This document shows positions 34,395 to 35,530 of a stretch of DNA of 37,504 nucleotides, piece by piece. The stretch comes from a virus: IMG/VR virus record IMGVR_UViG_3300046559_000784, positions 1 to 37,504 of that record; one strand, 5' to 3'. Below the pieces are notes generated by a model, which saw only the letters and a program-made list of their open reading frames with translations, made no database searches and was not told the origin of the DNA. How positions within the stretch are numbered: position 1 is the first letter of the stretch; every line of letters starts with the position of its first letter. The position numbers and the translations under genes were made by a program.

Positions 34395-34433
34395 GCCCGT
34401 GGCGGGCCGGCCAAGTCCCGGCCCGCCACGGGC
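34395..34433. terminator. Strong 16-bp stem terminator
   Basis: Perfect 16-bp stem (34395-34410 with 34418-34433), 7-nt loop ccaagtc. Separates the 30.8-34.4 kb operon from the replication gene. Shares its ccggcccgccac arm with the post-capsid hairpin. Confidence 0.75.
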
Positions 34434-34462: not shown

Positions 34463-35530
34463 TTGAGCAACCAGAAGCAGTCCGAGAGCGTCGAGTCGGT
34501 TCGCAGCGTCTGGACCCGCACGCTGCGCAACGAGGTGCTGCGCGTCGGCAAGCGGCTGGCGCGGGTGGGAGCGGTCGGAGTCTGGCTCGCGACGTTCGGC
34601 AACGCGGACGGCTCCAGGTGCTTCCCCGGCCGGGACAAGCTGGCCGGCCTCACCGGATTCTCGGAGGAGAGCGTCTCGCGCTGTCTCCAGGTCCTGGAGG
34701 CCGCCGGGATGATCAGCGGCAAGCGGCGCCCGAACAACAACGCCGAGTACCAGCTCATGGTCCCGACCAGCCGCCCGGACTGGGACGCGGTCCTGCACAT
34801 CGTCGAGAACACCCGGCAGAAACACGCCAGGGCCCTGCAGAAGCTGCGCGAGGTCGAGGCTCGGACAGCGTCCGGGGACGCTATCCGGACAGCGTCCCCG
34901 GCGGGGGTTCCGGACAGCGTCCCCGGCGGGGGTTCCGGACCGCGTCCGCGGACGCCCTCCGAGATCCCGGACAGCGTCCGCGGACACCCCCGGACAGCGT
35001 CCGGGGACGCTATCCGGACAGCGTCCCCGGCGGGGGGTACACAGACACCTACCTACGGTAGGTACCCCCTCACCCACCCGGAGGCGGCTGATCTCTCACC
35101 TCAGCCACAGGTCCGCGTGGGCGCGCGAGGCGAAAACGATCTTTCCCCCGGGGCGAGCGAACCGACGGGAGAGACCGGGGCCGACCGGCGTTGCGCCTGC
35201 GGGCACCGGATCGTCCGGCCGGACCGGGACCGCTGCGGTGGCTGCATCAAGGACGACCGGTCCGCAGCCGAGCAGGAGGCCCAGCGGCTGCAGCGCGCCG
35301 AGCAGCTGCAGCGGGACATCGCCGCCGCGAACGAGGTCCTCGGCGGAGAGCGGCCGGGCCGGCCTCTGGTCCCGGTCCCGGGGCAGGGGAGGCCGCAGCA
35401 GGACCGGCCCCCGCGGCCGCTGACCATGACCGCCATCGACGGCGGCCGGGCAGCCGAGGACCAGGCCCAGGCCGCCCCTCCCGTGGTCCGCCAGCAGCAG
35501 CGGGCAGTGGGTGACTCCTGTGAGCCCTGA
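34463..35530 (+). CDS. HTH replication-initiator-like protein with embedded origin
   Basis: A 355-residue protein; TTG start with ggagag at 34451-34456. Winged HTH (HTH_36 style) at about residues 38-95: AVGVWLATFGNADGSRCFPG, LAGLTGFSEESVSRCLQVLE, AAGMISGKRRPNNNAEYQL. Residues about 134-195 are a low-complexity linker (RTASGDAIRTASPAG repeats) imposed by seven DNA iterons. A zinc-ribbon-like part (CACGHRIVRPDRDRCGGCIK, about 235) and a Gln/Arg/Pro-rich tail follow. The layout resembles lambda O, whose gene contains the origin it binds. Probable initiator or loader; no polymerase or helicase is present in the window. Confidence 0.7.
   Translation: MSNQKQSESVESVRSVWTRTLRNEVLRVGKRLARVGAVGVWLATFGNADGSRCFPGRDKLAGLTGFSEESVSRCLQVLEAAGMISGKRRPNNNAEYQLMVPTSRPDWDAVLHIVENTRQKHARALQKLREVEARTASGDAIRTASPAGVPDSVPGGGSGPRPRTPSEIPDSVRGHPRTASGDAIRTASPAGGTQTPTYGRYPLTHPEAADLSPQPQVRVGARGENDLSPGASEPTGETGADRRCACGHRIVRPDRDRCGGCIKDDRSAAEQEAQRLQRAEQLQRDIAAANEVLGGERPGRPLVPVPGQGRPQQDRPPRPLTMTAIDGGRAAEDQAQAAPPVVRQQQRAVGDSCEP
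34862..35026. repeat. Seven iterons of cggacagcgtcc
   Basis: Copies start at 34862, 34886, 34911, 34936 (one mismatch), 34968, 34991 and 35015, 23-32 bp apart. Several share the longer unit tccggacagcgtccccggc. A 6-bp dyad acctac-g-gtaggt follows at 35050-35062. Iteron spacing of about two helical turns plus a following dyad is typical of theta origins; the array is inside a probable initiator gene. Confidence 0.75.

Follow-up and report, generated by a model that had tools for sequence, protein, structure and literature searches.

What function does a tandem array of short DNA repeats serve when it lies inside the coding sequence of a putative DNA-binding protein? This question was raised by IMG/VR virus record IMGVR_UViG_3300046559_000784, analysed here over a stretch of 37,504 nucleotides (positions 1 to 37,504; hereafter, the window). 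A sequence-only reading had described a seven-copy iteron array with one mismatched copy, followed by a dyad, within the gene starting at 34463, and this description was confirmed. Six exact copies of CGGACAGCGTCC and one copy with one mismatch, all in the forward orientation, occupy positions 34862–35026 with a pitch of 24/25/25/32/23/24 between successive iterons, and the palindrome ACCTACC-TAC-GGTAGGT is located downstream. Two inverted near-copies, GGATAGCGTCC on the minus strand, were found between copies 1 and 2 and between copies 6 and 7. The iteron has the form of a near-palindrome, CGGA-N3-CGTCC, in which N3 is CAG in the window, and the entire array and the palindrome are contained within the winged-helix ORF (Table 1). 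Seven repeats were reached in none of 300 protein-preserving synonymous-codon shuffles of the gene (shuffle maximum, five), and equal-sized windows elsewhere in the genome contained six repeats at most. The search for the 12-mer proposed by the same reading detected no exact CGGACAGCGTCC in the rest of the 37504-base record and no second array in the window, while the relatives carry in-gene arrays of their own.

Table 1. Positions of the initiator-like gene, the iteron array and associated elements in the window
Feature	Position	Strand	Basis
Initiator-like gene, 355 aa	34463..35530	+	GC-frame bias; HTH_36 and PHROG matches; AlphaFold2
Winged-helix DNA-binding domain (predicted)	34487..34864	+	AlphaFold2, mean pLDDT 82, helices and beta wing
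Arg57 codon	34631..34633	+	Presence tracks G at third variable iteron base
Iteron 1, CGGACAGCGTCC, encodes RTAS	34862..34873	+	Repeat search, family alignment
Inverted iteron near-copy	34876..34887	-	Repeat search
Iteron 2, RTAS	34886..34897	+	Repeat search, family alignment
Iteron 3, PDSV frame	34911..34922	+	Repeat search, family alignment
Iteron 4, one mismatch (CGGACCGCGTCC), third frame; missing in part of family	34936..34947	+	
Iteron 5, PDSV frame	34968..34979	+	Repeat search, family alignment
Iteron 6, RTAS	34991..35002	+	Repeat search, family alignment
Inverted iteron near-copy	35005..35016	-	Repeat search
Iteron 7, RTAS	35015..35026	+	Repeat search, family alignment
Palindrome, 7-bp arms and 3-nt loop	35047..35063	.	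Position kept in nearly all relatives; covariation
Conserved block TCACCTCAGCCACAGG	35096..35111	+	DNA alignment; codon identity
GAAAACGATCTTTC, locally A+T-raised	35132..35145	.	One of two such spots near dyad
Zinc-ribbon-like CxC...CxxC motif, C-terminal part	35192..35245	+	Read from sequence

Close relatives of the locus were reached by DNA patterns (a 16-mer and a two-iteron pattern) and then by profiles. The tblastn search with the window protein and with a family protein gave no match in 50,697 deposited phage genomes, tblastn against plasmids gave only a weak Micromonospora match, which later became informative (see below), and a single-protein search for related loci detected none in two collections. 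The relatives thus reached are prophages, integrated or on contigs, of Streptomyces cellulosae, S. acidiscabies, S. scopuliridis, Streptomyces spp. and Kitasatospora, together with many further IMG/VR contigs. The 18 aligned family members retain both the array with its pitch and the palindrome, in the equivalent position of the gene, and at loci with at least four copies at the family pitch the array lies in this gene, 3' of the same winged-helix domain (locus L008 is incomplete at the array, and its complete version is L102). Two pitches are seen in the family, the one found in the window and another in which iteron 4 is missing, leaving a gap of 45; the first iteron pair is sometimes spread apart or supplemented. 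The palindrome, with arms of 6–8 bp, follows 20–25 nt past the last iteron in nearly all relatives. Retention of the iterons in relatives that keep the gene had been set beforehand as the test of the original proposal; essentially all close relatives retain them with register and position unchanged. No clear array was seen in the homologues L093 and L124. Arrays with a pitch of 12 or 21 bp (L046, L064, L066 and others) were set aside as unrelated repeats. A frameshifted or decayed version of the initiator gene, in which CGGACAGCGTGC-type repeats are degenerate, is present in one Streptomyces genome (L095:1386-2090).

The nature of the encoded protein was then considered. The ORF opens with TTG, and its product is predicted to comprise a winged helix, an array-encoded disordered linker, and a zinc-ribbon-like and coiled C-terminus. 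The expectation that the repeats encode a low-complexity linker agreed with the AlphaFold2 model of the whole protein, in which the array-encoded part is unstructured and of low confidence and is followed by a long helix. The initiator-like identity was likewise supported: all 18 members matched the PHROGs 'replication initiation O-like' and 'replication initiation protein' (best O-like E-value, 1.4e-10 in the family and 8.6e-5 for the window protein), and the iteron sequence co-varies with the protein. HTH_36 (PF13730) was matched by 18 of 18 members at E ≤ 0.01 (best, 5.6e-8), with a score for the window protein of 22.5 bits, which is under the Pfam cut-off of 25. The window protein gave no match to the Pfam O-family at E ≤ 0.1, and the RepA_N domain was not among the Pfam matches of the window protein or the family. 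By sequence, the top match among solved structures was the N-terminal domain of the plasmid initiator RepA (E 0.008). By structure, VIA-align scored RepA_N initiators at Z 7.8, alongside many other winged helices, so that the fold comparison is not initiator-specific, and Foldseek gave no match below 1e-3. The C-terminal parts vary among subgroups, with the winged-helix domain and the array retained; the Cys pairs of the zinc-ribbon-like motif are present again in most relatives, and this motif possibly contacts a host factor. The C-terminal half has been exchanged between a zinc-ribbon type (window, L018) and an FFLTQW-type domain with a zinc-finger gene downstream of it (L015, L102), and this exchange looks like recombination at the array.

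Winged helices are regulators for the most part, and the family proteins gave weak matches to the HTH_Crp_2 and MarR profiles, with MarR folds at the head of the Foldseek list. The array could therefore be an operator, either for autoregulation or as an array of repressor sites, and the HTH protein a transcriptional regulator instead of an initiator. We consider this explanation unlikely, since the sites lie 0.4 kb into the gene, the family matches initiator PHROGs and recombination genes adjoin in relatives. Moreover, exact iterons are absent from the rest of the window and from the available flanks of the relatives, except for one copy in L051, and therefore the sign of a regulon is lacking.

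The window and its relatives were also searched for replication functions. Neither the window nor any of the tested relatives contained a DNA_pol_A, DnaG zinc-ribbon or Prim-Pol domain, and DnaB_C was not found in 15 records, the positive controls having worked in both cases; this agrees with the earlier statement that no phage polymerase, helicase or primase is recognizable in the window. Given these negative results, dependence on the enzymes of the host is a reasonable supposition. Those genes of the window that have Pfam matches fall into the structural, packaging, integration and regulatory classes, and the neighbours in relatives include genes for beta-clamp-like, DnaQ-like, YqaJ, ERF and RecT proteins. 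The gene 3' of the L015 initiator was examined as a candidate SPP1 gp39-like helicase loader and rejected, as it had no PDB support; its only Pfam match is a phage zinc-finger domain. On one contig (L045), a homologue of the gene at 1425–2189 is located approximately 4 kb downstream of the initiator, and on the basis of this placement the two ends of the window (1 and 37504) seem to result from opening a circular map at an arbitrary point.

A ParB-like-domain protein is encoded at 774–1109, and centromeres typically have iteron arrays. The array might on these grounds act in partition, as a centromere-like site to which either the HTH protein or the ParB-like protein binds, thereby stabilizing an extrachromosomal prophage. 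This is highly improbable, however: a ParA-type ATPase was not found in the window or in 12 family records (positive controls worked), tyrosine integrases are encoded in the window and in several relatives, and the array is placed after the HTH domain, not after the ParB-like gene.

Next, we analysed the selection acting on the array and the palindrome. The iteron 12-mer is translated in three frames, as RTAS, as PDSV and in a third frame that reads GQRP in relatives with an exact copy 4. In the aligned family, the frequency of an identical codon, given the same residue, was 0.91 in the iterons, 0.93 in the dyad and 0.96 in the block at 35095–35112, compared with 0.62 in the HTH domain. Thr is encoded by the rare codon ACA at 59 of 63 Thr positions in the iterons, compared with 8 of 210 in the remainder of these genes. 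Two-sided changes were observed at five of eight palindrome pairs (the L045 palindrome, for example, is CCACCCC-TAT-GGGGTGG), and none of 500 shuffles matched the covariation score. The three-frame reading, the forced ACA codon and the compensatory palindrome changes together indicate a constraint at the level of DNA. The family resembles initiators with an internal iteron origin in having an iteron array that lies in the coding sequence of the putative initiator and is conserved as DNA. The recurrent and conserved RTAS and PDSV motifs would suit a low-complexity linker that is itself functional, the DNA repeat being a by-product, yet the three frames of one 12-mer, the rare-codon enrichment, the synonymous constraint, the predicted disorder of the array-encoded segment and the location of the array past the stop codon in remote homologues leave this explanation scarcely tenable.

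The profile search was extended to loci whose arrays differ in sequence. N3 of CGGA-N3-CGTCC is CAG in the window group, ACC in L098, L099, L111, L121 and L123, AGT in L085, AGG in L109, and mixed but mostly CCG in L086; in these other subfamilies with CGGA-ACC-CGTCC, CGGA-AGT-CGTCC or CGGA-AGG-CGTCC, all copies have changed jointly. The protein nearest to that of the window (L098; 62% identity) has ACC in seven of seven copies, with the same copy number as the window and nearly the same pitch. Arg57 was present in 25 of 25 loci with G at the third variable base and in none of six loci without it, and its column is the sole alignment column in perfect agreement (31 of 31 loci). On the tree, Arg57 and the third-base G each changed three times, and these changes coincide, representing three independent co-switches. 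Because the column was chosen post hoc and three events are too few for significance (sign test, p 0.25), the Arg57 rule is a lead and not a proof. The residue preceding the conserved recognition-helix Glu was also tried as the determinant of specificity, and this fails for the window itself.

Among remote homologues, the location of the array after the HTH domain is constant, while its sequence and reading frame differ. In the Micromonospora plasmid CP108834, the HTH gene stands beside YqaJ and RecT and is followed by GTCTGGGGATCA repeats. The arrays of five IMG/VR loci (L125, L126, L128, L129 and L131) lie partly or wholly past the stop codon, and those of L130 and L132–L138 lie inside a longer ORF, the weakest of these counts being near those of neighbouring DNA. 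Mycobacterium abscessus phage phiGD34-2 gp53 carries ACGACCGGACAC repeats in its linker (L139:1780-1934), and the 10.9-kb Mycolicibacterium phage WillG carries (C)ACGGGACAT repeats within its HTH gene (L140:1750-1891). Judged by sequence, these two in-gene arrays are candidate origins; the record annotation mentions neither of them.

Taken together, we consider it very likely that the gene is a self-contained initiator–origin module, the protein of which binds the in-gene iterons and engages the replisome of the host. The iterons are very probably the landing site of the protein encoded around them, as suggested by their co-variation with it. The N-terminal winged helix would bind the iterons of the very gene that encodes it, the origin would consist of the array and the palindrome downstream, and the array-encoded stretch would serve merely as a flexible linker from the DNA-binding domain to the C-terminal part. 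Since no phage DnaB, DnaG, Prim-Pol or PolA was found, this C-terminal part probably recruits the host replisome. From the sequence evidence, we infer that binding, melting, recruitment and initiation take place at the array. A strong A+T-rich unwinding stretch was not found by the array or dyad; the A+T content at raised spots averaged approximately 0.40 in the family and reached approximately 0.5 in the window, the genome mean being 0.28, and the spot at 35132–35145 is a possible, weak candidate for the DNA-melting site. The palindrome may form a hairpin or act as a site for a dimer, and the TCACCTCAGCCACAGG block is possibly a site for a host factor. GC skew had no turning point and was uninformative on the origin. 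Directly 5' of the initiator gene, a perfect GC-rich hairpin with 16-bp arms is located at 34395–34433, and approximately half of the relatives have a hairpin of other sequence at a similar upstream place; these hairpins are terminator- or attenuator-like.

More broadly, and with slightly less than an even chance, actinobacterial phages may share a modular cassette, composed of a winged-helix gene with its own array, whose origin specificity was repeatedly re-set by joint switches of all iterons and a few protein residues (with Arg57 recognizing one G), the array itself having shifted between coding and non-coding sequence. A candidate 0.6-kb origin with its initiator is hereby proposed for a group of Streptomyces prophages, and the subfamilies provide a natural series of switched site specificities for swapping. 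A search rule is also offered for other actinobacterial phage origins, including those of M. abscessus prophages: an HTH_36-type gene, then a repeat array. No description of the Streptomyces-type initiator family was found in the literature searched; this kind of origin is known from phage lambda and had not been characterized before in these Streptomyces-type phages.

In phage lambda, the origin is located within the initiator gene (PMC7157519). The system proposed here resembles lambda O/ori in its N-terminal DNA-binding domain and in the iterons inside its own gene, and the window protein is weakly O-like, the O-like PHROG matches being weak. It differs from lambda in the iteron, in having seven short GC-rich sites and a covarying palindrome after the array, and in having no Pfam O-family match, no identified P-type loader and no long A+T-rich stretch. 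In SPP1, oriL is located in gene 38, and gp38 is an origin-binding protein with direct repeats in its own gene (PMC6316719), as in the candidate system; SPP1, however, has its own helicase loader and DnaB-type helicase, neither of which was found here, and oriL has an A+T-rich unwinding element, compared with the short A+T maxima of approximately 0.4–0.5 here. In pSK41, the Rep boxes are central in rep and the ori-encoded linker is dispensable, while pPR9 Rep has an HTH_36 (pfam13730) N-terminus and supports autonomous replication (PMC5703833). The pSK41-type RepA_N initiators (PDB 4PQL, 4PT7 and 5KBJ) share the winged-helix N-terminus and central in-gene sites with the protein studied here, and pPR9 Rep shares its HTH_36 N-terminus. 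In contrast to pSK41 RepA_N, the window protein is not RepA_N by Pfam, has another C-terminus, belongs to a phage rather than a plasmid, and has GC-rich instead of A+T-rich sites. By analogy, the best reading is that the candidate system works like lambda O, SPP1 gp38 and pSK41 Rep.
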